Source: an uncultured Ruminococcus sp. (GTDB lineage Bacteria; Bacillota; Clostridia; Oscillospirales; Acutalibacteraceae). From it: 64,000 bases of DNA. The notes under the pieces are model-generated. The model searched no databases and was not told the DNA's origin. It saw nothing but the letters and a program-made list of their open reading frames with translations. The stretch is from positions 1 to 64,000 of the forward strand of contig CADBZY010000009.1 in NCBI GenBank assembly GCA_902799245.1. Direction: 5' to 3'. Below, piece by piece: positions 1 through 18,938 of the stretch. Positions within the stretch are counted from its first letter, which is position 1; each line of letters starts with the position of its first letter. The translations under genes and the position numbers were made by a program.

Positions 1-203
1 GGTTCTACCCCCAGATACCAATATCCTCGCAAGTCCAAATATCATCATAACAAAAAATCTAATTTGTGATTTGCTTCACTAAGTTGTGGATAGTGATTTA
101 AAAATGGCAAAAAATCACTGTAAATGATTATGACCGTTATCATTAATAATGCATGGGTATTTTTTAAGATTAAGAAGTAAAAAAACATGAATGGTTGGGA
201 GAA
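1..203. other. AT-rich left edge, no supported gene
   Basis: No confident coding region. Short open stretches cross the left edge on both strands, one on the minus strand reading as a hydrophobic segment, but none can be identified from about 60 bases. The notable feature is the 17-bp motif at 79-95 (separate entry). The rest is AT-rich leader to the flippase gene. Confidence 0.5.
79..95. repeat. Copy of the MITE terminal repeat
   Basis: CTAAGTTGTGGATAGTG is identical to the right terminal sequence of the palindromic insertion at 18796-18938. By orientation the element would extend leftwards out of the window. It may be a solo end, a second MITE remnant, or one end of the full-length parent transposon. 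The exact 17-base match inside 64 kb is very unlikely by chance. Confidence 0.6.
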
Positions 204-1604
204 ATGAAAAACAGAAATGTAAATCCGATGGTGAAATCCTCGGTAATCTATATTTTAGCAACCGGTTTAGGTGAAGCAATGTCATTCTTGGGTATTATCG
301 TATTCACAAGACTGATGTCGAAGGCCGATTATGGCAATTACAGTACGTACTATGCATTTGTGGCACTTTTTCCTATTTTGTTAGGAGTCAACCTGTATTA
401 TTCATTAAATAACGCTTATATTGATAAAACGAACAAAATAAAGGAATTTCGCAAATCTGTGCTTTTTTTATCCACTTGTACCGCTATATTTATGTCTGTT
501 CTGATAATGACAGTGGGAATATTTTTCGTGAAAAATGTACGGTGGTATGTAATACTTTTTTCACTGTGCCATTCTTATTGCTTTTTCATCATCAATTACA
601 CGATATATTCTGCCAATATGGAAAACGATTATAAGAAAAAGCTATGGTTGCTGATCTTGCCCAATACCATGCAATTTATTCTTTCATTACTATTTATTCT
701 TGCGATACCTTCCCACACTTTTATTGCAAGGGTTGTCGGCAGCGTTATTGGTGTTTGGACGATTGCTGCCGTTTGCTATTTTGGAATCATTCGTTCTCAA
801 GGAAAATTATTTTGTCAGGATGACTGGCATTATGCTTTATGCATTTCTGTGCCGTCTATTCTGATGTCGGTGTCAAACCATCTTTTGCAACAATGTGATA
901 AGATTATGATAACCAACATATGGGGGGCAGAGGAAACCGCTGTTTATTCTGTCATCTATTATCTCGGATACTCGATGATAGCTGTAAATATTGCCATTGG
1001 TCCGGTCAGACAAGCGTGGATATTTAAAAAAATCAGTCAAAATAACTTAGGTCAGGCAAAATGTCTTCAAAAATATTATTTAATGATTTTTATGTTTCTC
1101 GCAGCAGCGATCATGTTGTTCGGAAGAATTGCGTTAAACATTATTGCCCCCCCAGCTTATTGGAAGTACGAATACATTCTGCCGTTTGTAATAAGTGCTT
1201 GTATGATGGTTTTGTATGCTTTTTACACTGAAATTGTCTTGTTTTATAAGAAAAACATGATATTATCTTTAACCATCTTATTAGGTGCTATCATTAACGT
1301 AGTCTTAAATGCAGTTTTTATTCCAAAATTGGGAGCTATAGCAGCTTGTTATACGACTGTAATTTCATACTTCTTAATTTTTCTTTTGACTGGAATAATC
1401 TCTGATCACTACAAAAAAGGCGTATACTCCAAGAAATATTTTGTTATATTCTTGATATGGATTGGAATCATTGCTATGATAGATTATTTCTTTCATAGTG
1501 TTCTTATTGGTTATTACGGTTTATATTCCATTTTATTGGTTGTTATTATTTATTATACAATTCGTCATAGGGAAGAACTGAAGGTTGTTATTAAATCAAC
1601 TTAA
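204..1604 (+). CDS. Wzx-type polysaccharide flippase
   Basis: Multi-pass membrane protein of about 466 residues with roughly 12-14 hydrophobic segments. The N-terminal pattern (GLGEAMSFLGIIVFTRLMSKADYG) is typical of the MVF/MOP polysaccharide exporters that flip undecaprenyl-linked repeat units across the membrane. The reading frame is open from a TTG at 195, but ATG 204 is the more natural start; the GGGAGA just upstream is closer than usual for a Shine-Dalgarno. It is first in the rightward glycan unit, followed by a sialyltransferase-like gene. It is very AT-rich compared with the right half of the window, as usual for transferred glycan loci. The substrate, possibly a legionaminic-acid glycan, is inferred from the neighbouring operon. 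Confidence 0.85.
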   Translation: MKNRNVNPMVKSSVIYILATGLGEAMSFLGIIVFTRLMSKADYGNYSTYYAFVALFPILLGVNLYYSLNNAYIDKTNKIKEFRKSVLFLSTCTAIFMSVLIMTVGIFFVKNVRWYVILFSLCHSYCFFIINYTIYSANMENDYKKKLWLLILPNTMQFILSLLFILAIPSHTFIARVVGSVIGVWTIAAVCYFGIIRSQGKLFCQDDWHYALCISVPSILMSVSNHLLQQCDKIMITNIWGAEETAVYSVIYYLGYSMIAVNIAIGPVRQAWIFKKISQNNLGQAKCLQKYYLMIFMFLAAAIMLFGRIALNIIAPPAYWKYEYILPFVISACMMVLYAFYTEIVLFYKKNMILSLTILLGAIINVVLNAVFIPKLGAIAACYTTVISYFLIFLLTGIISDHYKKGVYSKKYFVIFLIWIGIIAMIDYFFHSVLIGYYGLYSILLVVIIYYTIRHREELKVVIKST

Positions 1605-1686
1605 TTAAATTATCTATATTACGAACTGTTCATTTTTTTGTTTTATAAATAATCTAATCTCAGGACAATAATTGGAGGAAGTTTGT

Positions 1687-2802
1687 TTGAAAAAAAAAGG
1701 TTTAGTAATCATTCATTCACCTAAAGAGTTGCATCAATTCGTATGGTATTACTGCAATAAAGGTAAAAAAATAAACTGGGATGTTCTATGCATGCCAAAT
1801 GGAGAAAAAAAAGAATATATCCATAAACATTGTGAAGCAGCAGGTATTTTCTCGAATGTTATTATTTCGGATAAATCTTTTTTCTGGTCATCAATATTTC
1901 AAAAGATAAAAGTCTTTTTGTCAATGCTATTTTATTTTATTATTGGACAACAAAAGAAGCTTTGCCGCAAATTTCTTAACGCTCTTGTTAGATTAGATGA
2001 TTATGATGAATTAGTGGTCGCTTGTAACACAGGAATAATTGTCGGTTCATGTATTGTGCTTGGAGAAGAAAAAAATGTTGTAATATTGGATGATGGACTT
2101 GGTGAATACCAAGAAAAAACCAAATGGATCTCAATAGACAAACTCCGTTCTCCTTATTATATTGAGGGTTTAATTCTTTCAAGAATGGGATATTGCAGCC
2201 CCGGATTTTTTTATTTTGAGGCAGAAAAAAATTGCACAAAATATTCATATTATCCGGAAAAGATGATATATCGCAATTATAAGAAGATACTTCCGTTATT
2301 CGCCGATGAAGGCACAGATTTAGAACTATATGACAAACTGTTGAGACGAGTTTATCCATTATTGAATAGTTTTAATTTCAATGATGCTGAAGCTATATTC
2401 TTTACGCATCCAATGAAGGATTATTCATCAGATTATGAAAAATATGTCAGACGTTTTGAGGCTTTTGTGAGCAATAAATATTCACGTATTTTTATAAAAA
2501 AAAATCCGTATGAAATAAGTAGTTATGAATTCGACGATCATGTCGTTTGCAAAGAAATAGACAGTTCAATTCCTGCTGAAGTTCTGCTTCCATACCTAAA
2601 AAATTTGGATGTTTATATTCTTGTGTGCAGTTCAATACTAATGTCTACCAAAGCATTAGATCTGAAATTTAGAATAATTGATTTCGAGGGTATTCGTGAA
2701 GAAAATTTAGAAAAAGGTCTTTATAAATATCCATCGGAGAAAGATGTTAGACATTTTTGTGACAATTTCTCGAGCGGTAAATATGAAATTATCGTTATTT
2801 AG
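1687..2802 (+). CDS. Putative sialyltransferase-like glycosyltransferase (GT52/polysialyltransferase type)
   Basis: About 371 residues. The VILDDGLGEY segment near residue 140 and the late pattern IFIKKNP...IPAEVLLPYL...VLVCSSILMS resemble the DDG/DEG, HP-type and acidic-Pro/Ser motifs of bacterial CMP-sialic-acid transferases (GT52 and POLYST families). The second motif is degenerate (KKNP, not KPHP), so this is a tentative family call. A strong GGAGGA at 1674-1679 places the start at TTG 1687, seven bases downstream, rather than at TTG 1672. Codons 2-4 are a run of nine A residues. Its position beside a nonulosonate pathway suggests it transfers legionaminic or a related acid. It is AT-rich like the flippase. 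Confidence 0.55.
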   Translation: MKKKGLVIIHSPKELHQFVWYYCNKGKKINWDVLCMPNGEKKEYIHKHCEAAGIFSNVIISDKSFFWSSIFQKIKVFLSMLFYFIIGQQKKLCRKFLNALVRLDDYDELVVACNTGIIVGSCIVLGEEKNVVILDDGLGEYQEKTKWISIDKLRSPYYIEGLILSRMGYCSPGFFYFEAEKNCTKYSYYPEKMIYRNYKKILPLFADEGTDLELYDKLLRRVYPLLNSFNFNDAEAIFFTHPMKDYSSDYEKYVRRFEAFVSNKYSRIFIKKNPYEISSYEFDDHVVCKEIDSSIPAEVLLPYLKNLDVYILVCSSILMSTKALDLKFRIIDFEGIREENLEKGLYKYPSEKDVRHFCDNFSSGKYEIIVI

Positions 2803-3456: not shown

Positions 3457-5235
3457 ATGGACTATTTTATTTATCCAATTGACAATAAGAGCCTATTAAG
3501 GAAGAAAATCAGAATTAAAAGGGATCTGCTTAGCAAAAGCGATCGTTTTATAGATAAACGTATAGCAGTTCTGGGCGGTTCTACTACGAACGAAATCGTA
3601 GACCAGCTCGAATTGTTTCTGCTCCATTATGGCATCAGACCCACTTTCTATCAATCAGAGTATGCTCAGTATTGGCAGGACGCCATGTTTGGCAATGAAG
3701 AACTTGACAATTTTAAGCCTGACGTCATCTATATACACACAAATTGGCGCAATATAACCGAATTCCCGACTACTTCCAGCTCACGTGAAGAAACCGATGT
3801 TTTGCTTGAGAAGACATATAACCACTTCGCTGTAATATGGGATAAACTTGCGGAAAAATTCAATTGTCCGATTATTCAGGATAACTTTGACCGACCTGCC
3901 TGGAGACTGCTCGGCAACAGTGATATTATTGATCACAGAGGTAGAACCAACTTTATTTCAAGACTCAACCAAATACTTTATCGCTACGCAGAGGTGCATA
4001 AGGCTTTTTTTGTCAATGATGTTGACTATTTAGCTGCCTGCTACGGGCTGGAGGCGTGGAGCAATCCGCTGTATTGGCATATGTACAAATATAGCCTGTG
4101 CCTTGATGCGATCCCCAGTCTTGCGAAGAGCGTTGCCGATATTATCAAAAGCATTTACGGCAAGAACAGAAAGGTGCTTGTCTGCGACCTGGACAATACC
4201 CTATGGGGAGGCGTTGTGGGTGATGACGGCGTTGAAGGTATCCGATTAGGGCCTGAAGTACCCGTGGGGCAGATTTATTCCGAGTTTCAGCAGTATGTTA
4301 AGGAGCTGAAATCCATTGGCGTATTATTGGCTGTCAACAGCAAAAATGATGAAGAAAACGCGATAGCAGGCTTAAATCATCCCGACGGTCCATTGAAACC
4401 TGACGATTTTGTGTCCATAAAAGCCAACTGGGAAAACAAGGACAGAAATATGCAGGCTATCGCAAACGATCTGAATCTCGGTATTGACAGTTTTGTGTTT
4501 ATTGACGACAACCCAACGGAACGTGAAATAATCATTCAGTCAGATTTTGGAGTGGCTGTTCCAGTTATGGATAAAGTAGAGAATTACATCAGAGTGCTGG
4601 ACAGAAACGGTTTCTTTGAAGTGACGACACTGTCTTCTGATGATTTATCCCGGGTTGAAATGTATCAGGCAAACGCAAAACGGGTTCAGTTGCAGGAAAG
4701 CGTAGGAAATTATGATGATTTTTTAAAGAGTCTTCATATGAAGGCAACCATAAGAGCGTTTGAGCCGATTTATATTCAGAGAATCGCTCAGCTAACCAAT
4801 AAGAGCAATCAGTTTAACCTCACCACACTGCGGTGCAGCGAGAGCGATATCAGCAGTATGAGGGAATCTGAGAATTATATCTGTCTTTATGGAAAGCTTG
4901 AAGACAGGTTTGGCGACAACGGTGTGGTAAGCGTTATTGCCGGTCAGATTGAGGATAACCAATTGCATATTAGATTGTGGCTCATGAGCTGCCGTGTATT
5001 AAAAAGAGGTCTGGAAAGCGCGATGCTGGATGCGCTTGTCAGCGATGCCAGGGTAAGAGGGCTCGGACGCATTATCGGGTATTACTACCCCACACCCAAA
5101 AACGGTATGGTGAAGGATTTTTATTCTCGCATGGGATTTGAGAAAATCTCAGAGGACGCAGATGGCAATACAACATGGCGGCTGGGTTTGGATGATTACC
5201 GGTCCCAGGAAACAGCCATAGAAATACGCAGATAA
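3457..5235 (+). CDS. FkbH-like HAD-IIIC family protein (SGNH-like + HAD + GNAT)
   Basis: 592 residues in three parts. An N-terminal SGNH-like region begins with IAVLGGSTTNE (about 36-46). A HAD domain carries motif I VCDLDNTLWGG with Asp244 and Asp246, and a later FIDDNPTERE motif. The C-terminal GNAT-like part contains RLWLMSCRVLKRGLE and a YYPTPKNGMVKDFYSRMGFE end. Characterised FkbH relatives load a D-glyceryl unit from 1,3-bisphosphoglycerate onto an acyl carrier protein and dephosphorylate it. The ACP gene begins 14 bases downstream, which strongly supports this role. Start ATG 3457 follows AAGAGGA. First gene of a four-gene cassette; the product is probably glyceryl-ACP or a related hydroxyacyl-ACP, inferred. 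Confidence 0.85.
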   Translation: MDYFIYPIDNKSLLRKKIRIKRDLLSKSDRFIDKRIAVLGGSTTNEIVDQLELFLLHYGIRPTFYQSEYAQYWQDAMFGNEELDNFKPDVIYIHTNWRNITEFPTTSSSREETDVLLEKTYNHFAVIWDKLAEKFNCPIIQDNFDRPAWRLLGNSDIIDHRGRTNFISRLNQILYRYAEVHKAFFVNDVDYLAACYGLEAWSNPLYWHMYKYSLCLDAIPSLAKSVADIIKSIYGKNRKVLVCDLDNTLWGGVVGDDGVEGIRLGPEVPVGQIYSEFQQYVKELKSIGVLLAVNSKNDEENAIAGLNHPDGPLKPDDFVSIKANWENKDRNMQAIANDLNLGIDSFVFIDDNPTEREIIIQSDFGVAVPVMDKVENYIRVLDRNGFFEVTTLSSDDLSRVEMYQANAKRVQLQESVGNYDDFLKSLHMKATIRAFEPIYIQRIAQLTNKSNQFNLTTLRCSESDISSMRESENYICLYGKLEDRFGDNGVVSVIAGQIEDNQLHIRLWLMSCRVLKRGLESAMLDALVSDARVRGLGRIIGYYYPTPKNGMVKDFYSRMGFEKISEDADGNTTWRLGLDDYRSQETAIEIRR

Positions 5236-5249
5236 AACGGAGGATTCAC

Positions 5250-5492
5250 ATGGAAAGAAAAGAAATTTTCAAGAGACTAGACGAAGTATTTCAGGATGTA
5301 TTTGGTGATGACAGTGTAACTGTTAACGATAAAACCACTGCGTCAGATATTGAAGGTTGGGACAGCTTGCGCCATATCACGCTTTTGACGGCAATTGAAG
5401 ATGAATTTGAAATCAGCTTCTCCTTGGAACAGTCTTTTTCCTTTAAGAATGTCGGCAATATTGTCGACGCTATCATTGCGCTGAAGAACTAA
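5250..5492 (+). CDS. Acyl carrier protein
   Basis: 80-residue acidic protein with the phosphopantetheine site GWDSLRH, the serine being near residue 39, and typical four-helix spacing. Its partner is the preceding FkbH-like protein (14-base gap) and the acyl chain would be passed to the GNAT encoded two genes later. ACPs in glycan loci with an FkbH-like gene are thought to carry short hydroxyacyl groups rather than fatty acids. Strong GGAGG precedes ATG 5250. A general fatty-acid ACP is unlikely because no fatty-acid genes are nearby. Confidence 0.9.
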   Translation: MERKEIFKRLDEVFQDVFGDDSVTVNDKTTASDIEGWDSLRHITLLTAIEDEFEISFSLEQSFSFKNVGNIVDAIIALKN

Positions 5493-5502
5493 GGAGCCGA
5501 AA

Positions 5503-6462
5503 ATGAACAAACTGTATATTGCCATGTACCATTATACTCGGGATATTACTCACTCCCGATATCCCGAAATCAAAGGATTAGATGTTCCTTTGTTCAAGCA
5601 GCAAATTGAATTTTTCAGCCATCACTTTTCCGTGGTTACGACGGAAGATGTGATTGATTCTGTAGAAAGAAACACCGAGTTGCCGGAAAATGCTTTGCTG
5701 CTCACTTTTGACGACGGATATATTGATAATTATACATACGCATTTCCTATTCTTGAAAATGCCGGTATGCAAGGCTCGTTTTTCATTCCGGGCAAGACTT
5801 TTGCAGAACACAAACTGTTAGACGTTAACAAAATTCATTACATATTAGCATCATCGGATATCAACAAACTTCTTTCGGATTTATTGGATAGAATGGATTA
5901 TTACAGAGGACGTGAATTCGATTATCCGGATAACGATACCCTTTTCAACGAATATGCTAAAGCAAACAGATTTGACTGTAAGGAAGTAATCTTTGTAAAA
6001 AGAATGCTTCAAACTGTGCTTCCGGAGCATTTGCGCAATGTAATTTCGAGCGAGTTATTTGCAAAACACATGGGGGTTTCCGAAGAACAGCTCGCATATG
6101 AATTATATATGACAGAGGAACAGATTAGCACATTAAAAAGGCATGGAATGTTTATTGGAATACATGGGTATGATCATTATTGGCTTGGTAGACTGAGTCC
6201 GGAACAGATGGAGCAGGATATCACTACAGCCCTTCGTGTGATGGATCCATTCTTAGACAGGCATCACTGGGTGATGAATTATCCTTATGGAAACTATAGC
6301 GAGGATGTACTAAATTTTATCGCAAAACAGGGAGCCTGTCTTGGTCTTACCACGGAGGTCAGAACAGCTGACTTGAATGCTGACAATCGTTTGACTTTGC
6401 CAAGATTCGACTGCAACGATTTTCCGCCTAAAAGCGAAAACTATAAGAATTTCGTAATATAG
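5503..6462 (+). CDS. Polysaccharide deacetylase (NodB fold)
   Basis: 319 residues. LLTFDDGYIDNYTYAFPIL near residues 66-85 is the NodB motif 1 (TFDDG, catalytic and metal Asp); IGIHGYDHYWLGRLSPEQ around 221-240 supplies the H-x(3)-H metal motif 2. NYPYGNYSEDVL fits motif 3. No signal peptide is evident, so it probably acts in the cytoplasm on a nucleotide- or lipid-linked sugar, or on a small precursor, instead of on finished wall polymer. It lies 10 bases after the ACP and 18 before the GNAT, suggesting that N-acetyl removal and re-acylation are coupled. The substrate is not established. Confidence 0.85.
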   Translation: MNKLYIAMYHYTRDITHSRYPEIKGLDVPLFKQQIEFFSHHFSVVTTEDVIDSVERNTELPENALLLTFDDGYIDNYTYAFPILENAGMQGSFFIPGKTFAEHKLLDVNKIHYILASSDINKLLSDLLDRMDYYRGREFDYPDNDTLFNEYAKANRFDCKEVIFVKRMLQTVLPEHLRNVISSELFAKHMGVSEEQLAYELYMTEEQISTLKRHGMFIGIHGYDHYWLGRLSPEQMEQDITTALRVMDPFLDRHHWVMNYPYGNYSEDVLNFIAKQGACLGLTTEVRTADLNADNRLTLPRFDCNDFPPKSENYKNFVI

Positions 6463-6480
6463 ATTTTCTGAGGATTGATT

Positions 6481-7467
6481 ATGAATAATTATATTATTAG
6501 ATTTGCCAATCAAAATGATACATCTTCCATTATGCAATTTATCAATGATTTCTGGAGAGCAAATCATATTCTTGCTCGTAATCGTGAGTTGTTTGATTGG
6601 CAGTATCTCAGCGACAATAAGCTCCATTTTGTTTTGGGCGTAGATAATGACAATCAGATACAAGGGCTGATAGGATATATTGCATATGATGTCGGAGACA
6701 AAAAAGATATAGCATTAGCTTTATGGAAGTCAAATCCGGGTTGCGGATATCTTGGTGTGCAAATATTGATGTATCTGATCCAAAATGAGCCACATCGTGA
6801 AATTGTCTGCACGGGGATAAATATGCGGACTACAGAACTGGTTTACAGAAAATTAGGATTCAGCATCGGAAAAATGAAGCAATGGTATCGTCTGTCTCCA
6901 AGAGAATGTTATCATATCGCAAGTGTAAAAGACAGCTTTATTCCTCCCATTCATTATTCTGCAGATCTGGATTTTGTCAGATGCAATTCAATTGATGAAC
7001 TCCCCACAGAACTTTTTTCGGACACATCATGTATCCCATATAAGTCAAAAGACTATTTTGAAAGAAGATATTTTGATCATCCGATATATAAATATCTGGT
7101 TTATAGAAGCCATAATAACAACACTCGTTCCGATTCTGTTGTCGTATTAAGGAAAGAGCAGGTAGATGGAAACTGCGTAGTTCGACTAATTGATTATATA
7201 GGAGTTCCTGCTGATTTTGCTTTACTGACTTCTGAACTTGATCATCTTGTCAAACAATATGACGCAGAATACATTGATATGTATGAATTTGGATTATCGG
7301 ATGCGGAGTTAATAAACGCAGGATGGTTATGTGTGGATGAACGTGAAAATATAATACCAAATTATTTTTCCCCATTCGAAGAAAAGAATATTGAGATTTA
7401 TTGCAGTACAACAAATAATAAGGCACTTCTTTTTAGAGGTGACGGCGATCAGGATCGTCCGAATTAA
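6481..7467 (+). CDS. GNAT-family acyltransferase
   Basis: About 328 residues with an N-terminal GNAT fold (IRFANQNDTSSIMQFINDFW; acyl-donor region near PGCGYLGVQILMYL) and a C-terminal extension of about 150 residues without a clear assignment. The length and shape recall GNATs of glycan loci that modify amino sugars. ATG 6481 is chosen over TTG 6475 because GAGG at 6470-6473 lies seven bases upstream. Last gene of the FkbH-ACP-deacetylase cassette, so it may transfer the ACP-bound acyl group to the amine freed by the deacetylase. This is inference; a CoA-dependent acetyltransferase is the alternative. Confidence 0.7.
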   Translation: MNNYIIRFANQNDTSSIMQFINDFWRANHILARNRELFDWQYLSDNKLHFVLGVDNDNQIQGLIGYIAYDVGDKKDIALALWKSNPGCGYLGVQILMYLIQNEPHREIVCTGINMRTTELVYRKLGFSIGKMKQWYRLSPRECYHIASVKDSFIPPIHYSADLDFVRCNSIDELPTELFSDTSCIPYKSKDYFERRYFDHPIYKYLVYRSHNNNTRSDSVVVLRKEQVDGNCVVRLIDYIGVPADFALLTSELDHLVKQYDAEYIDMYEFGLSDAELINAGWLCVDERENIIPNYFSPFEEKNIEIYCSTTNNKALLFRGDGDQDRPN

Positions 7468-7506: not shown

Positions 7507-7538
7507 CCGGATGTGAGGGATAATCGCCCAACATCCGG
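7507..7538. terminator. Bidirectional terminator between the two glycan operons
   Basis: CCGGATGT (7507-7514) pairs with ACATCCGG (7531-7538) across a 16-base loop. On the minus strand the stem is followed by six T, making it a good terminator for the legionaminic operon. On the plus strand the tail is T-rich but weaker. It sits exactly between convergent genes. Confidence 0.85.
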
Positions 7539-7568: not shown

Positions 7569-8342
7569 CTACCCTTTTTCTCTCTTTTCAACTGCTACAA
7601 TATTCTCATAAATCTCAGCAAAATCGATCCTTGTGGCAAACAGATACTTAGCAATCACCTGCATCAGTTCAAAGTCGTTGATATGATCCAGATCCAATAT
7701 GCCCGTGTCTTCCATCATAATCACTTCGCAATATCCATCCAATACGCCCTTCTGAGTTCGTAGAAAATCGGGACGGTAGGCATACATGGATGCGTTCATA
7801 TCAAATATTTCCGGAGCCTGCTGACGTGCCACAAAATCAGAAGCAATTACTTTCTTGTAGCCGTGCTCTGTCTTCATTACCATATTGAAGTAAGGGTTTC
7901 GCCTGGAATCCGTTACGGAAAATGTTACATCAGCATGGCAGGCTTTCTGTTTCTCAATCAAATGAACGATATCTTCCACCTTCCGCAGCGGTGAAGTCAG
8001 ATCGAGATCCACTACCATGTCATAGTGCGTTTGAAATCTGTCTTCCATTTTGACAAGTGTGCTGCAAATAACCGCCGGCTTAGGTACTCTGTCACCGCCG
8101 AGTTCTTCTTCTCTGACGATAATTTCAACATCCACAAAGGGATTATTCTTGGCAATCTCAATCAGCTTTTCGCTGTCCGTATTCACCGCGACATCAATGC
8201 GGTCTTCCTTGTTGCTTTTTTTGTAAAGTTCGATTGCTGAAAAAGTATAATAAGGCAGAGGATATCCCAAAAAGTCTCTGATGTTTTTTTCAGGAATCCC
8301 TTTTGAACCGGCTCTGCCACAAATTGTCATTAGTATATTCAT
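7569..8342 (-). CDS. legF: CMP-legionaminate/acylneuraminate cytidylyltransferase
   Basis: 257 residues. The N-terminal ILMTICGRAGSKGIPEKNIRDFLGYPLPYY is the nucleotide-binding signature of NeuA/LegF enzymes, which couple CTP to a nonulosonic acid. VVDLDLTSPLR and the FSVTDSRRNPYFNMV segment are also family-typical. It is the last gene of the nine-gene minus-strand operon and performs its last step. LegF is preferred over NeuA because the operon contains LegB/LegC/PtmE homologues of the legionaminic rather than the N-acetylneuraminic route. The sugar specificity cannot be read from sequence alone. Confidence 0.85.
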   Translation of the reverse strand: MNILMTICGRAGSKGIPEKNIRDFLGYPLPYYTFSAIELYKKSNKEDRIDVAVNTDSEKLIEIAKNNPFVDVEIIVREEELGGDRVPKPAVICSTLVKMEDRFQTHYDMVVDLDLTSPLRKVEDIVHLIEKQKACHADVTFSVTDSRRNPYFNMVMKTEHGYKKVIASDFVARQQAPEIFDMNASMYAYRPDFLRTQKGVLDGYCEVIMMEDTGILDLDHINDFELMQVIAKYLFATRIDFAEIYENIVAVEKREKG

Positions 8343-8359
8343 AAGTTCACCTCAAATTA

Positions 8360-9301
8360 TTACATTACTATTCCTTGCGTGAGATTCATGGTCTGAACAG
8401 CTTCAAAAATCGTGCTGTCTGAGGCTGCGCCCGCAGCGATCTCCAGGAAGTGCCTTAATTCTGCCTTTTGAAAGTCATCACGGCTTTCCTCAAAGGAAAT
8501 TATTTCGCCTGACTTCAAAAATCGAATCTCATTTTTTATCAAATCGGCAATGATCGTATCATCCTCAGTGAAAAGCATACATTCTCTTACTGTGCTTCTG
8601 CCAAAATAATCCAGATGAAGTTCGACAAATTTATCGTCGTATTCAGCCATATACAAAGCGGTATCTTCCACGTCAATTTCAAGATTTGTTTTTTTTCCGC
8701 TCATGTAGACAACTTTCTTCGGCTCACCAAAAAGAAATTTCAGATAATCCCACTCATGGATCAGATCAATACTGACGCCGCCGCCAAGCACCTTCTGCGC
8801 ACTATAGGTACTGCGGTAGTCCTGCCCCGGTCTCCATTCGGGAAGATAGCTTGATGAAATGGCTCTGACGCCTATAATGTGATGATCAGCTACATATTGC
8901 TTCACATATTGAATCACCTTTTTATATCTCAGCGGACACGCTACATAACAGTTGACGTCATTCAGATAGGAAGAATTTTGGGCTTCGGATAAACGCCCGA
9001 CAGAAGAAACCGGTTTTTCAATGAAAAACGATTTCGCTTTATCATGAACCGCGTTAAGCGTAGACATATGATATTCATTGGGATTGGTGATAAAGATGGC
9101 GTCGTACTGATCCAATTCATCGGGACTTGTATAAACCTTATGAATAAGTGATCCTACCGTCAGCCCTTCTAACGTGTTCTTCCTGCGCACTACATCAATT
9201 TCCGCCTCCACACCGTTTTCCGACAATATTTCTGACAGATTTCTGATGTGCCGCTGCGCGATGGAACCAACGCCAATAAAACAGTATTTTTTGATAGCCA
9301 C
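8360..9301 (-). CDS. Gfo/Idh/MocA family oxidoreductase (first copy)
   Basis: 313 residues. N-terminal Rossmann motif CFIGVGSIAQRHIRNL and the FITNPNEYH and FIEKPVS segments of NAD(P)-dependent sugar dehydrogenases are present; the middle of the protein has the usual GGGVSIDLIHEWDYL motif. It is next to a second family member (6-base gap), so the two may form a pair. Oxidoreductases of this family accompany many nonulosonate clusters; their reaction is unproven. It may alter a side chain of the nonulosonate, or supply a precursor. Confidence 0.8.
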   Translation of the reverse strand: MAIKKYCFIGVGSIAQRHIRNLSEILSENGVEAEIDVVRRKNTLEGLTVGSLIHKVYTSPDELDQYDAIFITNPNEYHMSTLNAVHDKAKSFFIEKPVSSVGRLSEAQNSSYLNDVNCYVACPLRYKKVIQYVKQYVADHHIIGVRAISSSYLPEWRPGQDYRSTYSAQKVLGGGVSIDLIHEWDYLKFLFGEPKKVVYMSGKKTNLEIDVEDTALYMAEYDDKFVELHLDYFGRSTVRECMLFTEDDTIIADLIKNEIRFLKSGEIISFEESRDDFQKAELRHFLEIAAGAASDSTIFEAVQTMNLTQGIVM

Positions 9302-9307
9302 TGTCCA

Positions 9308-10279
9308 CTATGCCTCCATCTTATCAATCCAAACCAAAACCTTTTCATCGTCCTCAAAGCCGTATGAAGTATTTTCATTTTTTTCAACGGCAGAGAAGAA
9401 AGTGATGATTTCTTCCTGATAGGCATTTTCTACAATCGTTGCCTGATACCCGTTTTGGTGTTCATACTCTGTGTAAAGGTCGATTTTTTTCATCTCGCCC
9501 TGTTCAAATTTCTGCAACCCTTCCGGTGTACCGTTCCAGTTGATATAGAGATGCTCTCCATAGATTTCAAGATTTCTTACCGCTTTTGGACAGACAACGT
9601 CTACATGAAGCGTTCCCTTATGTCCGTTTTCATGCTCGATCTGAATCACATAGTTGTCGTCATAATCGATTTCCAGGCTGCTGCTGCGATCATGGAGAGA
9701 AGTGATGCTTTTGATCGGTCCAAAGACCTGAACGATCCACGGCAACTCAATTGCCATAATCTCGCGGCAGCCGTTGGTTCTTTTGTCTCCCACAAAAAAC
9801 TGCTTATAGCTTTCCCACGGATGCCAGTCGGGAAGATACTGCCCGACATGATAAGAATAGTTCAGAGCTTTTGCGTAATCATGTACTTGTGAAAAAATGT
9901 ATTTAATTTCTTCTCTGTACAAAAATGTTGACGACAAAAACAGCACCTTGTTCTTTTCTTTTGCCAAAGTAATATTTTCCTGGTAATAATCATTGATCAG
10001 ATTAATTTCGGTGAATACATTCAACCCGTTTTTCAGACAGTGATTGATAATTTTTCCATGAGAAACGGGAGATGTGCAGACAAAAACACAGTCAACGGCA
10101 TGTGTTGATAGCGCATCCTCTAAGGAAGAAAATGTTTCCAAACCGAATTGCTCGCTGACCTGTATTCTGCGTTCTTCACTGAAATCAACACCATAGATGT
10201 TCTCAACAGTATTCAATTGTTTCATTAACCGGATTCTTCTTTTTCCCATGGAGCCTAAGCCTATTACTACAACATTCAT
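9308..10279 (-). CDS. Gfo/Idh/MocA family oxidoreductase (second copy)
   Basis: 323 residues, starting VVIGLGSMGKRRIRLM (Rossmann GxGxxG) with FVCTSPVSHG following. The catalytic EKP motif of the family appears altered (FTEINLINDYY), so the classical Lys is not obvious: activity may differ from that of the neighbouring copy. The start codon overlaps the end of the upstream LegG gene by four bases, showing translational coupling. Its specific role in legionaminic metabolism is not known. Confidence 0.75.
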   Translation of the reverse strand: MNVVVIGLGSMGKRRIRLMKQLNTVENIYGVDFSEERRIQVSEQFGLETFSSLEDALSTHAVDCVFVCTSPVSHGKIINHCLKNGLNVFTEINLINDYYQENITLAKEKNKVLFLSSTFLYREEIKYIFSQVHDYAKALNYSYHVGQYLPDWHPWESYKQFFVGDKRTNGCREIMAIELPWIVQVFGPIKSITSLHDRSSSLEIDYDDNYVIQIEHENGHKGTLHVDVVCPKAVRNLEIYGEHLYINWNGTPEGLQKFEQGEMKKIDLYTEYEHQNGYQATIVENAYQEEIITFFSAVEKNENTSYGFEDDEKVLVWIDKMEA

Positions 10280-11445
10280 ATTTTTCCTCCAAAACTGACG
10301 TCATAGAATTTCTTCTTAAGATCAATATTTCCTTTCATAACAACGTCAATCGCTTTTTCGGCAATTTTCACTGCCGCGTTTCCATCTCCGTAAGGACTTA
10401 CCACCTGTCGGCAGATTTCTTTGTGTTCCGGCGAAAGCGCAGTATGAATGGCTTCCGCTATTGAAGCAGTGTCAGGCTGACAATTAATGATGCTTTCTGA
10501 TTGCAGCCGTCCACGCTGACGGTCTCCGATATTCACTGTAGGAACGTGAAACGCCGGTGTTTCAATAATTCCGCTGGATGAGTTGCCGAGAACAAACGCA
10601 CTGTATTTCATCAGTGACAAATACCTACGTACACCGAGAGAAGTGAACACATGCAGATTTGGCATCGTCTTTTCCGCTTCATCGAGCAGGTCATTGATTC
10701 TCGCACCGCCCTGATCGGCGTTGGATTTCGTGACAATAAACTCGATTTCATTAAATTGATTGATTGCCCGCAAAAACTCTTTTATCTGCTCATCTACCCC
10801 ATTGCCTTCCATGGTAACTGGATGATAGGTGCAGACAGCGTATTTACAATCAGATAAGCCGATGCTGTGAAGTGCTTCCTCTTTGCTCATATTGGCGACT
10901 GTAAGTATATTGTCGATACTGGTTGAGCCATAATTGAACACGCGATCCGGACATTCACCGAGCTGAATCACTCTTTTTTGGCTGTCTATATTCGTGACAA
11001 AATGCAGATAACTGATTTTGGTAATAGAATGACGAATCCATTCGTCCAAGGCACCTTCTGTCGTATCTCCGCCACAAAGATGAAATACGGGAGTTCGAGT
11101 ATTGCCTGCCGCGGCTGCGATAGCGAGAGTTTCATACCGATCGCCCAGCAGAATAACGGCGTCAAATCGTTCAGCGACAAACAAATCCGTAAATCTGACA
11201 AGGGCATCCGCTTGATTGGCTGAGATATCCTTTTCCGTGTCGGACTTGACAGAAATGGGAATTTTATAATCAATTCTGTCGTCAATTTCTCTGATCGTTA
11301 ATCCGTAACTTTCGGTCAGATGAGTTCCCGTAACAATAAGGTCAACTTTTATTCTGTCGCATTCATATTGTCTCAGTGCTTTTATCACCGGAGACAATAA
11401 TCCGTATTCCGCTCTTGTTGCAGTAACCACCGCTATTTTTTTCAT
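10276..11445 (-). CDS. legG: Hydrolysing UDP/GDP-sugar 2-epimerase (NeuC/LegG)
   Basis: 389 residues. VTATRAEYGLLSPVIKAL at the start, VTGTHL, GDRYETLA and CGGDTTEGALDEWIRHSITK are signatures of NeuC-type hydrolysing 2-epimerases. In the legionaminic pathway LegG releases 2,4-diacetamido-2,4,6-trideoxymannose from its nucleotide. GNSSSGIIETP near the C-terminal part fits the nucleotide-binding site. The gene overlaps LegI by four bases. It is a standard-length member and probably functional. Confidence 0.85.
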   Translation of the reverse strand: MKKIAVVTATRAEYGLLSPVIKALRQYECDRIKVDLIVTGTHLTESYGLTIREIDDRIDYKIPISVKSDTEKDISANQADALVRFTDLFVAERFDAVILLGDRYETLAIAAAAGNTRTPVFHLCGGDTTEGALDEWIRHSITKISYLHFVTNIDSQKRVIQLGECPDRVFNYGSTSIDNILTVANMSKEEALHSIGLSDCKYAVCTYHPVTMEGNGVDEQIKEFLRAINQFNEIEFIVTKSNADQGGARINDLLDEAEKTMPNLHVFTSLGVRRYLSLMKYSAFVLGNSSSGIIETPAFHVPTVNIGDRQRGRLQSESIINCQPDTASIAEAIHTALSPEHKEICRQVVSPYGDGNAAVKIAEKAIDVVMKGNIDLKKKFYDVSFGGKI

Positions 11446-12434
11446 AGTTCTATCAGCTCGTCCTCTTTAAAATCACGCACTGCTCTTGTTCCGAGTACCT
11501 CAAACCATTTCATCGGGCTTACTCCGCTGCCCGGTCTTTTTACAGTAATATTATCCTCGGTTAGTATTTCTCCTGCCATAATATCTCTTAATGCAACAAT
11601 GCTCTTGCGGGCAATGACTATATTCTTTCTTTCCGATGGAGAAGGCGTTTTTTTGCCTGTTCCTAATGCGGCTTCTATGTTTCGTATGCTTTGAACCATT
11701 GCAGCCAGTTCATCCGGTTGCAGGCTAGCTTTGTGGTCGGGACCTTCCATATTCCGATCAAGGGTAAAATGCTTCTCAATCACCGTTGCGCCCATTGCAA
11801 CCGCCGCAACGGGAACTTCTATTCCCTTTGTGTGATCGGAATAGCCGACCTCCAAACCGAAAGTCTCCCGCATTGTCTGCATTGCTCTGAGGTTGACGTC
11901 CTCAAAAGGTGTCGGATATTCGGTATTGCAATGAAGCAGCGTAATCTCTTTTGTTCCGTTTTCTTTAAGAACCTTTATCGCCGCTTCAATTTCGTGCAAT
12001 TCACACATACCTGTAGACATGACGACCGGCTTTCCTGTTTTCGCCAACGCAAGAAGGTAGGGAAGATTGGTGATTTCTCCGGAAGGGATTTTCCAGAACG
12101 GCATATCAATAGCGTTGAGAAATACTATACTCTCAAAGTCAAAAGGGGTCGAGAGAAAACAAATTCCCACCTTATCACAGTAGGCTTTAAGCTGAATGAA
12201 CTCGTCATAAGAAAGTTCTAATTTCCTGAGCATATCCTGCTGTGAACTGTCGCCGGTTGTTGCTTTTTGGTACTCCGCTTTTTTAGCAGTATGTGAAACC
12301 AGATTGGTCGATTTGAAAGTCTGAAATTTTATGCAATCGACTCCTGCGGATTTAGCTGCATCAACTAATTGGCACGCAATTGCAAAACTACCGTTATGAT
12401 TGACGCCTGCCTCCGCAATAATATATACACTCAT
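11442..12434 (-). CDS. legI: N-acetylneuraminate/legionaminate synthase (NeuB/LegI)
   Basis: 330 residues. IAEAGVNHNGSFAIACQLVDAAKSAGVDCIKFQTFK is the NeuB TIM-barrel start, and STPFDFESI, PSGEITNLPYL and YSDHTKGIEVP are conserved in enzymes condensing a 6-deoxymannosamine derivative with phosphoenolpyruvate. The C-terminal 60 residues form a SAF (antifreeze-like) domain beginning near RKSIVALRDIMAGE. The start overlaps the stop of the NeuD-like gene at 12434, so translation is coupled. Confidence 0.9.
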   Translation of the reverse strand: MSVYIIAEAGVNHNGSFAIACQLVDAAKSAGVDCIKFQTFKSTNLVSHTAKKAEYQKATTGDSSQQDMLRKLELSYDEFIQLKAYCDKVGICFLSTPFDFESIVFLNAIDMPFWKIPSGEITNLPYLLALAKTGKPVVMSTGMCELHEIEAAIKVLKENGTKEITLLHCNTEYPTPFEDVNLRAMQTMRETFGLEVGYSDHTKGIEVPVAAVAMGATVIEKHFTLDRNMEGPDHKASLQPDELAAMVQSIRNIEAALGTGKKTPSPSERKNIVIARKSIVALRDIMAGEILTEDNITVKRPGSGVSPMKWFEVLGTRAVRDFKEDELIEL

Positions 12435-13063
12435 TATTCAATCACCTTACATGGATTTCCGTATGCTTTTACCTTATCCGGAATGTTTTTGACTACAACA
12501 CTTCCGGCGCCGATAACCGATTCAGAACCTATCGTAATAAGTTGCCGGACAACACTTCCCGCTCCAACATGCGAATCATCTCCGACAGTAACCTGCCCGC
12601 ATAGAACAGTTCCAGGACTGATGTGAGCAAAGTCACTGATAACACAATCATGCTCAACGACCGCTCCGGTATTGATGATAGAACAGATACCTACCGACGT
12701 GCCTGCATTAATGACCGCTCTCTTTCCAAGAAATGTTCCTTCCTTTATTTCAACATTCTTTGCGATTATTGCGGAAGGATCAATGATCACCGGAACATTA
12801 AGATTGTATGACTTGACCATCTGATAAAGCTTCCTTCTGACAGCAGTGTTGCCTACACTGCCGACTGTAATAAAAGCCTCTGTCCATCCATCTTTAATAA
12901 GTCCAGGAATATCATTATCCGCACCGATGACAGACACGCCCAGATAAGAATGATTATTGGTATCAACAATTCCGATCTCGTCATATAATCCAAGAGCTAT
13001 GACACTATCAACAACAGAATGGCAGTGTCCTCCACCGCCAATCAACATAATCTTTTTTTTCAA
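12434..13063 (-). CDS. NeuD/PglD-like sugar N- or O-acetyltransferase
   Basis: 209 residues. The N-terminal PglD-like Rossmann part (IMLIGGGGHCHSVVDSV) is followed by a left-handed beta-helix with hexapeptide repeats (AHISPGTVLCGQVTVGDDSHVGAGSVV). The VVEHDCVISDFAHISPG segment has the catalytic His of this class. In the legionaminic route an enzyme of this family (LegH) acetylates the C4 amine after LegC, which this gene could supply; an O-acetyltransferase like NeuD is the alternative. It is placed between ptmE and legI. Confidence 0.75.
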   Translation of the reverse strand: MKKKIMLIGGGGHCHSVVDSVIALGLYDEIGIVDTNNHSYLGVSVIGADNDIPGLIKDGWTEAFITVGSVGNTAVRRKLYQMVKSYNLNVPVIIDPSAIIAKNVEIKEGTFLGKRAVINAGTSVGICSIINTGAVVEHDCVISDFAHISPGTVLCGQVTVGDDSHVGAGSVVRQLITIGSESVIGAGSVVVKNIPDKVKAYGNPCKVIE

Positions 13064-13079
13064 CCTATGATCCTCCGGA

Positions 13080-14129
13080 TTACTCCCCGTACAGTCTCTT
13101 CCTCATTTTCTCCAACTCAGACAATTGCCCCATATCCAGCCATTCGCTTTCGCTGACGGGAAACACCGATACCTTGCGCCCCTTCTGCCGCTGCTTTTCG
13201 ACAATCTCAGGAAATCCGACAGCCGTGTCATCCTCGATGTCCTCCAGCACTTCCGGTTCTACGACATAAATGCCGGTGTTGGCAAGGACTGAGATAACAG
13301 GTTTTTCTCTAATCTTTTCTATCTTGCCGTTGATGCCCATTTCAATGACGCCATAAGGAATGGGATAATATTTGTAGGCGCAGATCATGGTAATGACATT
13401 CTGGTGCTTACGATGAAACTGAAGAATCCTCTCATAATTGGCAAGCAGCAGATTGTCGCAGTTGGTGAAAAAGAAAGTGCTGTCAATTTTGTCCCGAAGA
13501 AGGCTGAGTCCGCCGCCAGTTCCTAACGGCTTTTCCTCGTCATACCAATGAATGTGATAATGTGCTTCATTTTCCGAAAAATACGCCTTCATCAGTTCTC
13601 GTTTGTAGTTGACAATAATATGAAACTGATCACAGCTGTAGCTCTGATATTCTTTCATAATGTGTTCGATAATAGGATAATCACCCACCGGTATCAAAGG
13701 CTTGGGAAGCACTCTGGTATAAGGATCCAATCGGGTTCCTTTTCCTCCGGCGTTGATTACCACAGGAATATGAAGCGGCGTGCGCTGTGTTCTGGCAGGC
13801 ATTTTGCCGATATACAAATCCACCATTCTGCCTTCGTCGTTACAAATCGGAATGGCAATTAATTTTTTGTTATCATAAAGAGTGACGGCTTCCTCGAACG
13901 TGTGGGCGAATTTGGGATCAGGGTGGGCGGCCTTCTGCACATTGTCATCCAGATGACCTCCTGCCAACAGAAAGCGGCGAACATCTCCGTCCGTCAGACT
14001 GTATTTTAGCCTTGTCTGTTCATCGGTAAGAAACAGGATGCCAGATGAGTTAATATCTATTTTGCGCATCGCTTCCGCAACGGAGAGATCACATGTGCCG
14101 ATAAATTTTTGAAATTCCAGATTATCCAT
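13080..14129 (-). CDS. ptmE: CBS-domain nucleotidyltransferase, glucosamine-1-P guanylyltransferase type (PtmE)
   Basis: 349 residues. Residues 1-115 resemble a paired CBS region; the nucleotidyltransferase begins near residue 123 with VVINAGGKGTRLDPYTRVLPKPLIPVGDYP, the G-x-G-T/S-R...K motif. PtmE of Campylobacter has this architecture and makes GDP-glucosamine, diverting amino sugar to legionaminic rather than wall precursors. Its presence therefore suggests a GDP-linked route here. The start overlaps legC by eight bases. The nucleotide (GTP or UTP) is inferred from architecture. Confidence 0.75.
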   Translation of the reverse strand: MDNLEFQKFIGTCDLSVAEAMRKIDINSSGILFLTDEQTRLKYSLTDGDVRRFLLAGGHLDDNVQKAAHPDPKFAHTFEEAVTLYDNKKLIAIPICNDEGRMVDLYIGKMPARTQRTPLHIPVVINAGGKGTRLDPYTRVLPKPLIPVGDYPIIEHIMKEYQSYSCDQFHIIVNYKRELMKAYFSENEAHYHIHWYDEEKPLGTGGGLSLLRDKIDSTFFFTNCDNLLLANYERILQFHRKHQNVITMICAYKYYPIPYGVIEMGINGKIEKIREKPVISVLANTGIYVVEPEVLEDIEDDTAVGFPEIVEKQRQKGRKVSVFPVSESEWLDMGQLSELEKMRKRLYGE

Positions 14130-15297
14130 TTGCCAGCTCCCTAAGCAGCTGCTTTATCTCGTTTGCGACATAATTGATTTCCTCTTCCGTAATCTGCGTA
14201 CTGCAGGGAATATTCAATATTCTGGAGGAATAATAAGGCGCCTTTTCCAATTGGTAGGTATCATCGTCACGATAAGGCTTCTGCTCGTGGATCAGACCCC
14301 ATACCGTTCTGGTCTGGATAGCTTTTTCATGAAGCCGTTTGACGATTTCTCGCATGGAAGCTTTAATTCTCGAAGTGTCAATCTTCAATGAATAAAACCA
14401 CATATTAGAAAAAACTCCATCTCGGAAAGGCATCAGCTCCGCCAGTTCAAAGCCTTCAAACGCTTTCAGATAAAGATCATAATGATGCTGTTTTCTTCTG
14501 ATAAATTCGGGAAGTTCCTCCATCTGAGCCACTCCGAGAGCCGCCTGCAGATTGGTCATACGGTAGTTGTATCCCACTTCATCGTGAATGAAGAACTGCG
14601 CGTCATCCTTTGCCTGCGTGGAGAGATAGCGCAAATGATCGACCGTGTCGGAATCGCTTGCAGTCAACGCACCGCCGCCGCCAGTCGTGATGATCTTATT
14701 GCCGTTGAAGCTGTAGGCGCCGAAATGACCGATGGTACCGGCAAATTTTCCAGCAAATCTTCCGTCTGTGTAATAAGTACCCAGAGCCTCCGTTGCGTCT
14801 TCAATAACAGAAAGGTTATATTCAGTTGCTATATCCATGATCGACTCCATATCAGCCATGTTGCCGAAAACATGAACGACAATGATCGCCCTTACGGCAG
14901 AACCTTTATATGTCAGAATTCCGTCTGAAAACACACATTCCTTTTCACAGAACTGACGCAGCTTGACTGGATCCATGCAAAGAGTGTCGTCGCAATCCAT
15001 AAATACCGGCTTGGCAAACTGATATTTGACAGGATTAACCGCCGCGATAAACGTCAGGGTCGGCACGATCACCACATCACCCGGTTCCACGCCGGATTCC
15101 CTGAGTGAAAGATGAAGCGCGGATGTTCCACTCTGACACGCCGCAACATTGTTTACATGCAAAAACTCCGCCATTTTCTTTTCCAGCTCATTGACATAGC
15201 TGCCCGCGGTAGAGACCCAGCCCTGCTCCACCGCGTCCATTACATAATTTTTCTCATTTCCTTCAAAATTGGGAATGGAAAGAGGAATAAAATTCAT
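14122..15297 (-). CDS. legC: DegT/DnrJ-family PLP aminotransferase (LegC)
   Basis: 391 residues. The PLP lysine is in YSFNGNKIITTGGGGAL (Lys201), preceded by VIEDATEALGTYY (the cofactor-ring Asp). CQSGTSALHLSL (54-65) binds the phosphate. It follows legB by 24 bases and would aminate the 4-keto sugar made by LegB at C4, with glutamate as the usual donor. Sequence and context fit LegC of the Campylobacter legionaminic pathway; PglE/PseC-like relatives with other stereochemistry cannot be excluded. Confidence 0.85.
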   Translation of the reverse strand: MNFIPLSIPNFEGNEKNYVMDAVEQGWVSTAGSYVNELEKKMAEFLHVNNVAACQSGTSALHLSLRESGVEPGDVVIVPTLTFIAAVNPVKYQFAKPVFMDCDDTLCMDPVKLRQFCEKECVFSDGILTYKGSAVRAIIVVHVFGNMADMESIMDIATEYNLSVIEDATEALGTYYTDGRFAGKFAGTIGHFGAYSFNGNKIITTGGGGALTASDSDTVDHLRYLSTQAKDDAQFFIHDEVGYNYRMTNLQAALGVAQMEELPEFIRRKQHHYDLYLKAFEGFELAELMPFRDGVFSNMWFYSLKIDTSRIKASMREIVKRLHEKAIQTRTVWGLIHEQKPYRDDDTYQLEKAPYYSSRILNIPCSTQITEEEINYVANEIKQLLRELANG

Positions 15298-15321
15298 GCT
15301 GATTGACCTTCCTTTTCTGCC

Positions 15322-16530
15322 TTACATTTTGCTGTCAAGCGATTTTCCGGTTTCAATATGCTCGAAATTCGGCAGATAATCTTTCATAATAGAAACAACT
15401 TCTCCCTTAGTTGTTTTATCCTTTTCAAACACATCGTTTAATTCTTCATAGAGTCTTTGCACCTTTCCCTTGTCAGGAATCTGTTTGCCGACGATTACGC
15501 CTAAGGCCTTGAAGCGCTCCATATCGGCGGTCTCGGTGTCGGTCACAAATTCCTCAAAAGGCTTTTCGCCCGATGTATCGGAAACAGAATAATGAACCGG
15601 ATACATATTGCTTCCGTTTTTGAGTTCCTCTGCTTTTTCGACAGCTTCTTCATCGGAACTGCATTCCAGAACTTCATAGCCGTGAGCATGAAGCAGTTCG
15701 GTGGCGATGGCGTCAAAGGTCATCATCTGCGCTTCTTGCAGTTTCGGAAAGAAGATAGCCCGGTTTTCTCCCAGCATACAGGACAGCATACAAATCTGAC
15801 CGCTTTCTTCGGGCGAAACGAAATATCTTCTGACATCAGACGGCGCGCCTAACGGCTGTAATTTCTGTATTCTCGCAAGGAAACCAGCGGGAAGCGAACC
15901 GTTGGAAAAAGCAACATTGGCAAAACGTGCGGTCTTAACCGGGAACTTGTCCGAATAACTGAAAATCAGGTCCTCCATGATCCGCTTGGAAGCCCCCATA
16001 ATATTCACCGGATTGGCTGCCTTGTCCGTTGAAACGCAAAAGTATTCTTCCGGTGGATATTCTGAAAGCAGGTCGAGCAGCAGCTTGGCGTGAAGCACAT
16101 TGTTCTGAAGAAGAGCTTCAACGGAATAAATGTCCTTTTCTGATCGAACATGCTTATGAGCGGAAAAGTTTCCGACAATATCAAAGCCGCCTCTGCTGAT
16201 GAACATCTTTTTGAATACCGGAGAGGCAAAATCCATCGGGTAGGGAATATAATCCTCCGGCACATACATTCCTTTGGTAGATCGCAGGTCACGGGTCAGT
16301 TCCGCCAGCGCGTTTTCATTGGTGTCCACTACCACAAGTGCCTTTGGCTGAAACGGCAGCACTGCTTTTATAAAGGACGACCCGATACTTCCTGCGCCGC
16401 CGATGACGAGAACGGATTTATCCTTAATTTTTTCAGACAGAACATTTCGATTCGCTTCAATATCCGAAAGAAACATTGACCCCGGTCGCTTGGTAACATA
16501 TTCTGAAATAAATTGATTCAGATTAAACAT
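15322..16530 (-). CDS. legB: NDP-sugar 4,6-dehydratase (LegB)
   Basis: 402 residues, extended SDR. The cofactor motif GGAGSIGSSF is at 44-53; STDKAANPVNIMGASKRIMEDL contains the TDK and M-x-x-x-K elements of the FlaA1/PglF/LegB dehydratases. The first enzyme of the pathway and first gene of the operon, converting NDP-GlcNAc to the 4-keto-6-deoxy sugar. ATG 16530 follows GGAGG. A promoter at 16644-16672 lies about 115 bases upstream. Long for a PseB (about 330), matching LegB-like proteins that carry a C-terminal extension. Confidence 0.85.
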   Translation of the reverse strand: MFNLNQFISEYVTKRPGSMFLSDIEANRNVLSEKIKDKSVLVIGGAGSIGSSFIKAVLPFQPKALVVVDTNENALAELTRDLRSTKGMYVPEDYIPYPMDFASPVFKKMFISRGGFDIVGNFSAHKHVRSEKDIYSVEALLQNNVLHAKLLLDLLSEYPPEEYFCVSTDKAANPVNIMGASKRIMEDLIFSYSDKFPVKTARFANVAFSNGSLPAGFLARIQKLQPLGAPSDVRRYFVSPEESGQICMLSCMLGENRAIFFPKLQEAQMMTFDAIATELLHAHGYEVLECSSDEEAVEKAEELKNGSNMYPVHYSVSDTSGEKPFEEFVTDTETADMERFKALGVIVGKQIPDKGKVQRLYEELNDVFEKDKTTKGEVVSIMKDYLPNFEHIETGKSLDSKM

Positions 16531-18805: not shown

Positions 18806-18938
18806 AACTTAAGCACTCCCCCAGTCGCTACGCGACAGCCCTCTCAAAGAGGGAGCCATTTTTTGCCTCCCTCTTTGAGGGAGGTGGCACGCCGCAGGCG
18901 TGACGAAGGGAGTTTATTTCCCTAAGTTGTGGATAGTG
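18796..18938. mobile_element. 143-bp MITE-like palindromic insertion
   Basis: Terminal inverted repeats CACTATCCACAACTTA (18796-18811) and its complement (18923-18938) bound an element flanked by perfect 10-bp direct repeats GTTTCATAAT (18786-18795 and 18939-18948). Inside, CCCTCTCAAAGAGGGAG and CTCCCTCTTTGAGGGAG form a long internal palindrome with a GTCGC/GGCACGCC decoration, a type I recall as common in gut Firmicutes. It has no coding capacity. Removing the element plus one direct repeat (153 bp) restores a continuous reading frame, IDRDYET-GQTG, in the surface protein; insertion adds an in-frame stop at 18914-18916. Confidence 0.85.

Follow-up and report, generated by a model that had tools for sequence, protein, structure and literature searches.

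The first 64,000 nucleotides of contig CADBZY010000009.1 from an uncultured Ruminococcus sp., referred to below as the window, harbor a four-gene cassette (FkbH-like protein, acyl carrier protein (ACP), CE4 deacetylase, and predicted GNAT acyltransferase) located beside a nonulosonate operon. The conserved core of the cassette is the deacetylase together with the GNAT, and FkbH–ACP is one among several interchangeable acyl-supply modules. In the reading that we favor with moderate confidence, the cassette would act in the cytosol on the legionaminate-type sugar produced by the neighboring operon, remodeling one N-acyl group of this sugar ahead of its transfer to a surface polysaccharide. Bacterial surface nonulosonates bear many N-acyl groups, and we know of no enzymes assigned to the placement of most of the unusual ones; the swapping of modules beside a constant deacetylase could explain the diversification of these surface sialic-acid-like sugars.

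The cassette comprises four intact open reading frames on the plus strand (3457–7467) with intergenic gaps of 14, 10, and 12 bp, bearing out the tightly spaced same-strand genes next to a nonulosonate operon described in the earlier note on this DNA:

3457..5235, plus strand: FkbH-like protein, 592 aa, with FkbH_N, HAD-IIIC phosphatase, and C-terminal acyltransferase region (TIGR01686, PF21211)
5250..5492, plus strand: stand-alone ACP, 80 aa (PF00550)
5503..6462, plus strand: CE4/NodB-type deacetylase, predicted cytoplasmic, 319 aa (PF01522), carrying a helical insert (residues 100–215, approximately)
6475..7467, plus strand: tandem-GNAT N-acyltransferase, predicted from the modeled structure, 330 aa, start codon TTG at 6475 or ATG at 6481

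The families of the cassette recur together in other genomes. With the deacetylase as anchor, a single scan across 84,980 species genomes returned 36 close homologues (52–77% identity). Their hosts are Lachnospiraceae, Eubacterium, Ruminococcus, spirochaetes, and an archaeon, Methanomicrobium mobile; the set includes near-duplicate loci (L022/L025, L033/L034). A GNAT relative was present within 7.5 kb in 28 of the 36 loci and nonulosonate genes within 10 kb in 25, looser markers (e.g., a lone LegC-like aminotransferase) being counted. In L016, L017, L031, L035, and L039, and likewise in the gammaproteobacterial L148, the deacetylase resides inside or at the edge of the nonulosonate cluster. 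Distant CE4 homologues from the same scan (20–38% identity) had a NeuB/NeuC neighbor in 0 of 44 loci. With the GNAT as anchor, surveys of four genome sets (about 390 genomes per set) yielded 22 loci chosen independently of the deacetylase, 20 of which carry FkbH or a ligase. CE4 was found in all seven GNAT-anchored loci with nonulosonate genes vs. 3 of the 15 without (Fisher p = 0.0007, or p = 0.003 if L147, where the cluster is cut at the edge, is classed as lacking them).

The complete set of four families was encountered in 10 loci (the window, L009, L010, L014, L016, L032, L039, L043, L149, and L183); a lack of co-occurrence elsewhere, which the earlier note named as a refutation, was thus not observed. 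In the gammaproteobacterial L149, the order is neuA–neuB–neuC–CE4–FkbH–ACP–VOC–GNAT (the matched stretch of this GNAT was flagged in the survey for a single in-frame stop, yet a 329-aa open frame spans it), and in L183 it is CE4–GNAT–FkbH–ACP, adjoining flagellar rod genes. Since L149 and L183 use a different CE4 subfamily, only distantly related to that of the window, the four families were probably combined on more than one occasion. Overall, the association of the cassette with nonulosonate genes recurs well above chance.

The supply module is the variable part. Among the 36 close deacetylase loci, FkbH was present in 7 and an AMP-forming ligase, usually accompanied by an ACP, in 15, and none carried both; some loci possess a 3-hydroxyacyl-CoA dehydrogenase instead (L008, L012), and an acyl-CoA type is probably a further supply module. 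FkbH was rejected as the conserved anchor: 20 close homologues (L122–L141) retrieved from 391 Clostridia genomes all had an ACP nearby, 18 of the 20 had an MBOAT transferase, and these loci mostly lacked the deacetylase and GNAT. The deacetylate-and-reacylate logic proposed in the earlier note is retained as the favored one, but the conserved unit is narrower than the proposed four genes, being limited to deacetylase plus GNAT.

The relation of both core enzymes to the module was assessed in trees of the 23 loci having a deacetylase, a GNAT, and a labelled module, with 500 shuffles. The GNAT tree contains 2 module changes vs. a shuffled mean of 6.9 (0 of 500 shuffles as low), whereas the deacetylase tree of the same loci contains 6 vs. 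6.8 (about 170–185 of 500 as low); in larger locus sets, too, the GNAT tree follows the module and the deacetylase tree does not. The median identity to the window in the same loci amounts to 66% for the deacetylase and 35% for the GNAT. GNATs from FkbH loci are nearer to the window GNAT (p = 0.007), whereas the deacetylases from FkbH loci are not nearer to the window deacetylase (p = 0.9). Such a pattern is expected of a deacetylase that meets a constant sugar and a GNAT that meets a varying acyl carrier.

From these observations, we infer the catalytic steps, the sugar position, and the acyl group as follows. The FkbH-like protein would dephosphorylate 1,3-bisphosphoglycerate and load glyceryl onto the ACP, as predicted by analogy with characterized FkbH-type enzymes; the CE4 deacetylase would strip an N-acetyl group, most likely the one at C5, from the nonulosonate as such or from its CMP form; the tandem GNAT would then re-acylate the freed amine with the ACP-bound glyceryl, yielding an N-glyceryl sugar heavier by 46.005 Da than its N-acetyl counterpart. 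N5 is favored as the site because the Campylobacter jejuni product, taken as an analogue, keeps N7 acetylated. The deacetylase/GNAT pair would remain constant, while the supply module would be swapped by lineage (FkbH–ACP, AMP-forming ligase plus ACP, or, probably, the acyl-CoA type). The nearest relatives of the window FkbH, forming a clade with it (support 100/100), are those of L009 and L043, both deacetylase–GNAT loci in which FkbM-domain methyltransferases belonging to a single gene cluster adjoin the ACP; L043 also carries legionaminate-type genes and flagellin. An O-methylglyceryl sugar is predicted for L009 and L043, which would closely parallel the di-O-methylglyceroyl group of C. jejuni. 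As neither the cassette nor the operon of the window contains an FkbM-domain methyltransferase, plain glyceryl is predicted here.

It is an even call whether this represents a general modular route, in which one cytoplasmic CE4 family opens a nonulosonate amine and a fast-evolving tandem-GNAT family lacking a Pfam model re-acylates it from the adjacent supply module: with glyceryl, possibly with lactyl where MaoC and SDR are present, or with hydroxybutyryl-like groups where a ligase or 3-hydroxyacyl-CoA genes are found.

Judged by their kept motifs and folds, the cassette proteins look active. The FkbH, ACP, and NodB assignments made earlier all hold, with scores over cut-off for TIGR01686 (281.5 bits vs. 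the curated 146.65, along with 41.2 bits for Pfam FkbH_N), PF00550 (30.1 vs. 20.8 bits), and PF01522 (70.6 vs. 23.1 bits). Invariant residues include D244/D246/N247/T248 (DLDNT 244–248, the HAD-IIIC DxDxT/N motif), C137, and C512 of the FkbH-like protein (32 homologues), the only FkbH in the genome; the D38–S39 phosphopantetheine site of the ACP (47 relatives); and, among relatives of the deacetylase, the CE4 motifs T68-FDDG (TFDDG), H221/H225 (HxxxH), and Y260-PYG (YPYG). The deacetylase is modeled (pLDDT 91) as a CE4 barrel to which a helical insert of about 110 residues is added; the nearest solved folds are PplD, PgaB, and IcaB, and the fold matches 6dq3 (TMt 0.80–0.83). The N-terminal sequence of the enzyme revealed no hydrophobic or signal segment, and the predicted structure assigns its first residues to strand 1 of the barrel. 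The enzyme thus appears cytoplasmic, as had been claimed, and not of the extracytoplasmic PgaB/IcaB type.

Identification of the fourth protein from sequence alone failed (no match in Pfam, NCBIfam, or PDB sequence searches), and its structure was predicted instead. The model (pLDDT 92.3, the last residues being low-confidence) is a tandem GNAT fold like that of Eis, N-myristoyltransferase (NMT), and MAB_4324, with a Z of about 15 against Eis/NMT chains. Its C-terminal DGDQDRPN tail, conserved in the alignment of relatives, lines up with the C-termini of Eis and NMT. This fold, together with the homologue from the similar locus L149, which exceeds the Pfam GNAT cut-off, sustains the GNAT assignment of the earlier note. 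The protein is predicted to transfer the ACP-bound acyl group to the freed amine; its use of acyl-ACP and an amino nonulosonate is suggested by the agreement between tree and module.

Several observations weigh against the remodeling of a nonulosonate N-acyl group by the cassette. It is located outside the nonulosonate operon and convergent with it, and 11 of the 36 close deacetylase loci have no nonulosonate gene in reach (several of these, though not all, are short contigs). The GNAT, FkbH, and ACP genes are often adjacent, so linkage alone could yield a part of the tree agreement, and the L010 GNAT, though accompanied by FkbH, falls into the ligase clade. Finally, the predominance of MBOAT partners of FkbH–ACP in Clostridia and the four MBOAT genes elsewhere in the genome mean that glyceryl-ACP could be used by these MBOATs instead.

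An alternative which we consider unlikely is that the deacetylase and GNAT act on another N-acetylated sugar of the same surface polysaccharide (a nucleotide HexNAc or a lipid-linked repeat unit), the nonulosonate operon being a mere neighbor. A flippase and a glycosyltransferase likewise belong to the window locus, and 12 of the 22 GNAT-anchored loci lack both CE4 and nonulosonate genes, so the GNAT family serves other targets too; at the same time, CE4 tracks the nonulosonate genes among the GNAT loci (see above) and lies within or bordering the nonulosonate clusters of the loci already named. Less probable still, glyceryl might be put directly on the free amine of an intermediate, replacing LegH, with the deacetylase making a separate free-amine form and no exchange at the same position. 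Direct non-acetyl acylation of a 4-amino sugar has been proposed for the QuiNAc4NHb route in Acinetobacter (PMC3628348), but the operon of the window retains its own NeuD-family acetyltransferase, and the deacetylase and GNAT, adjacent in many loci, co-occur in the 28 of 36 mentioned. It seems very improbable that FkbH–ACP feeds MBOAT-type O-acylation outside the cell and stands beside the deacetylase and GNAT incidentally: the MBOAT genes of the Clostridia FkbH loci and of this genome are in its favor, but the window contig has none, and the window FkbH belongs to the fully supported clade of L009 and L043, both deacetylase–GNAT loci. A role of the cassette in anti-phage defence was dropped, as PADLOC gave no match.

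Further gene sets accompany the modules in related loci. In L007, L014, L016, L032, L039, and L089–L091, FkbH–ACP is followed by MaoC and SDR genes; as a guess, glyceryl-ACP might be dehydrated and reduced there to lactyl-ACP, for which the literature search returned no support. An aminopeptidase-like deacylase in the FkbH–ACP–x–GNAT loci of the same order was ruled out, the intervening genes being MaoC and SDR. The gammaproteobacterial deacetylase–GNAT loci L147 and L148 carry a fused LuxE–LuxC, an iron alcohol dehydrogenase, a ligase, and an ACP, a gene set that could make a 4-hydroxyacyl group. The archaeon M. mobile (L011) has genes for the deacetylase (68% identity), GNAT, ligase, a formyltransferase-like protein, and ACP, which likely reflects transfer across domains. 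The GNAT loci L175–L179, lacking nonulosonate genes and carrying ACP and ligase, perhaps serve a different target with another acyl group; an SDR and two transketolase-like halves are additionally present in L176 and L178, and LuxE/LuxC relatives in L175, L177, L178, and L179. The FkbH–ACP plus MBOAT loci among L122–L141 are possibly a dlt-like glyceryl-export cassette.

The neighborhood of the cassette, including the minus-strand operon convergent with it (7569–16530), comprises the following features:

195..1604, plus strand: Wzx-type flippase (PF01943, 40.3 bits)
1672..2802, plus strand: polysialyltransferase-like glycosyltransferase (PF07388, 22.2 bits, slightly under the cut-off of 23.3)
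7507..7538, no strand assigned: hairpin CCGGATGT...ACATCCGG, read from the sequence, between the convergent operons
7569..8342, minus strand: CMP-nonulosonate cytidylyltransferase, PtmB/PseF-like (PF02348; PseF model 71.9 bits, under the equivalog cut-off)
8360..10279, minus strand: two Gfo/Idh/MocA oxidoreductases (PF01408)
10276..11445, minus strand: NeuC/LegG-like UDP-sugar 2-epimerase (TIGR03568, 406.5 bits)
11442..12434, minus strand: NeuB/LegI-like nonulosonate synthase (TIGR03569, 514.9 bits)
12434..13063, minus strand: NeuD/PglD-family sugar N-acetyltransferase, LegH candidate (TIGR03570, 191.5 bits)
13080..14129, minus strand: CBS plus sugar-1-phosphate nucleotidyltransferase, PtmE-like (nucleotidyltransferase models, all under equivalog cut-offs)
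14122..15297, minus strand: LegC-family aminotransferase (TIGR04181, 443.6 bits, cut-off 420)
15322..16530, minus strand: LegB-like NDP-sugar 4,6-dehydratase (FnlA/PseB models under cut-off)

The LegC, NeuB, NeuC, and NeuD models score over cut-off, and the dehydratase and cytidylyltransferase are matched below equivalog cut-offs; the operon is predicted to encode a legionaminate-like pathway. Paired Gfo/Idh oxidoreductases are also present in the related nonulosonate clusters L014, L016, L017, L032, and L035. The hairpin is a possible two-way terminator; the terminator scan did not list it, its loop exceeding the limit of the scan. The flippase indicates a surface polysaccharide locus, and the glycosyltransferase is a possible user of the CMP-nonulosonate. 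Flagellin, suggested as a parallel by the Campylobacter case in the earlier note, was ruled out as the target here: searches of the genome for flagellin (PF00669) and for an MptE/Maf-like protein (PF01973) gave no match, hence the target of the sugar is probably a surface polysaccharide.

Directly 5' of the cassette (2841–3370), there is a degraded IS630-like transposase remnant (weak DDE_3 match) in an AT-rich region (31–44% GC vs. 50.6% in the remainder of the window), which is consistent with horizontal acquisition. Elsewhere in the window, the minus strand carries large repeat-domain open reading frames (17183–21368), surface adhesin-like by eye, the last having a basic tail after its C-terminal membrane segment, and a cobalamin riboswitch (38240–38450; RF00174, 43.9 bits).

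If the proposed exchange is true, the acyl group would be predictable from the gene beside the GNAT, and the GNAT family would become a tool for making defined N-acyl nonulosonates. Likewise, one carrier-protein module, FkbH–ACP, would be reused in antibiotics, MBOAT loci, and amino-sugar acylation, and the idea advanced for Cj1295 of C. jejuni (see below) would be testable in a simple four-enzyme set.

For glyceroyl placement on a nonulosonate, one hypothesis has been published: Hitchen (2010) proposed that Cj1295 removes the 5-N-acetyl group of pseudaminic acid so that methylglyceroyl can replace it (PMC3068675), the deacylation step itself being hypothetical. The Cj1295 locus contains the fkbH-domain gene cj1302 (PMC7099621), and the di-O-methylglyceroyl product was found as a CMP-sugar, i.e., it is made before transfer (PMC3068675). 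The system of C. jejuni resembles that of the window in the nonulosonate locus with an FkbH-domain gene and in the proposed exchange of 5-N-acetyl for a glyceroyl-type group, but its deacylase is aminopeptidase-like, its sugar is pseudaminic acid, and its target is flagellin. The Pfam scan of the cassette revealed no aminopeptidase-like gene; the deacylase there is CE4.

In polyketide systems, FkbH/OzmB-type enzymes with a stand-alone ACP form glyceryl-S-ACP from 1,3-bisphosphoglycerate, the accepted role of the FkbH type (PMC7489565). The same pair of proteins is present in the cassette, but the polyketide glyceryl-ACP is converted to tetronate or methoxymalonate extender units and not passed to an amino sugar. 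PplD, PgaB, and IcaB, sharing the CE4 fold and motifs with the window deacetylase, are polymer-acting enzymes that are secreted or bound to the surface, whereas the window enzyme appears cytoplasmic and has the helical insert. The O-antigen of Yersinia ruckeri O1 carries a 5-N-(4-hydroxybutyryl) nonulosonate. The genes found only in this serotype comprise a legionaminate cluster, an ACP, an AMP-dependent synthetase, a 3-oxoacyl-ACP reductase, and a polysaccharide deacetylase (PMC5552943); this set matches the ligase variant seen in the relatives of the cassette, but it lacks FkbH and was listed without a functional link (PMC5552943). Beyond the papers cited here, the literature search on a deacetylase with FkbH in nonulosonate loci found nothing. 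The earlier note, which knew of no such system, is corrected in that the idea of the exchange has a precedent in Cj1295; what is new here is the unrelated deacylase, the candidate carrier and transferase genes, and the visible swapping of modules.

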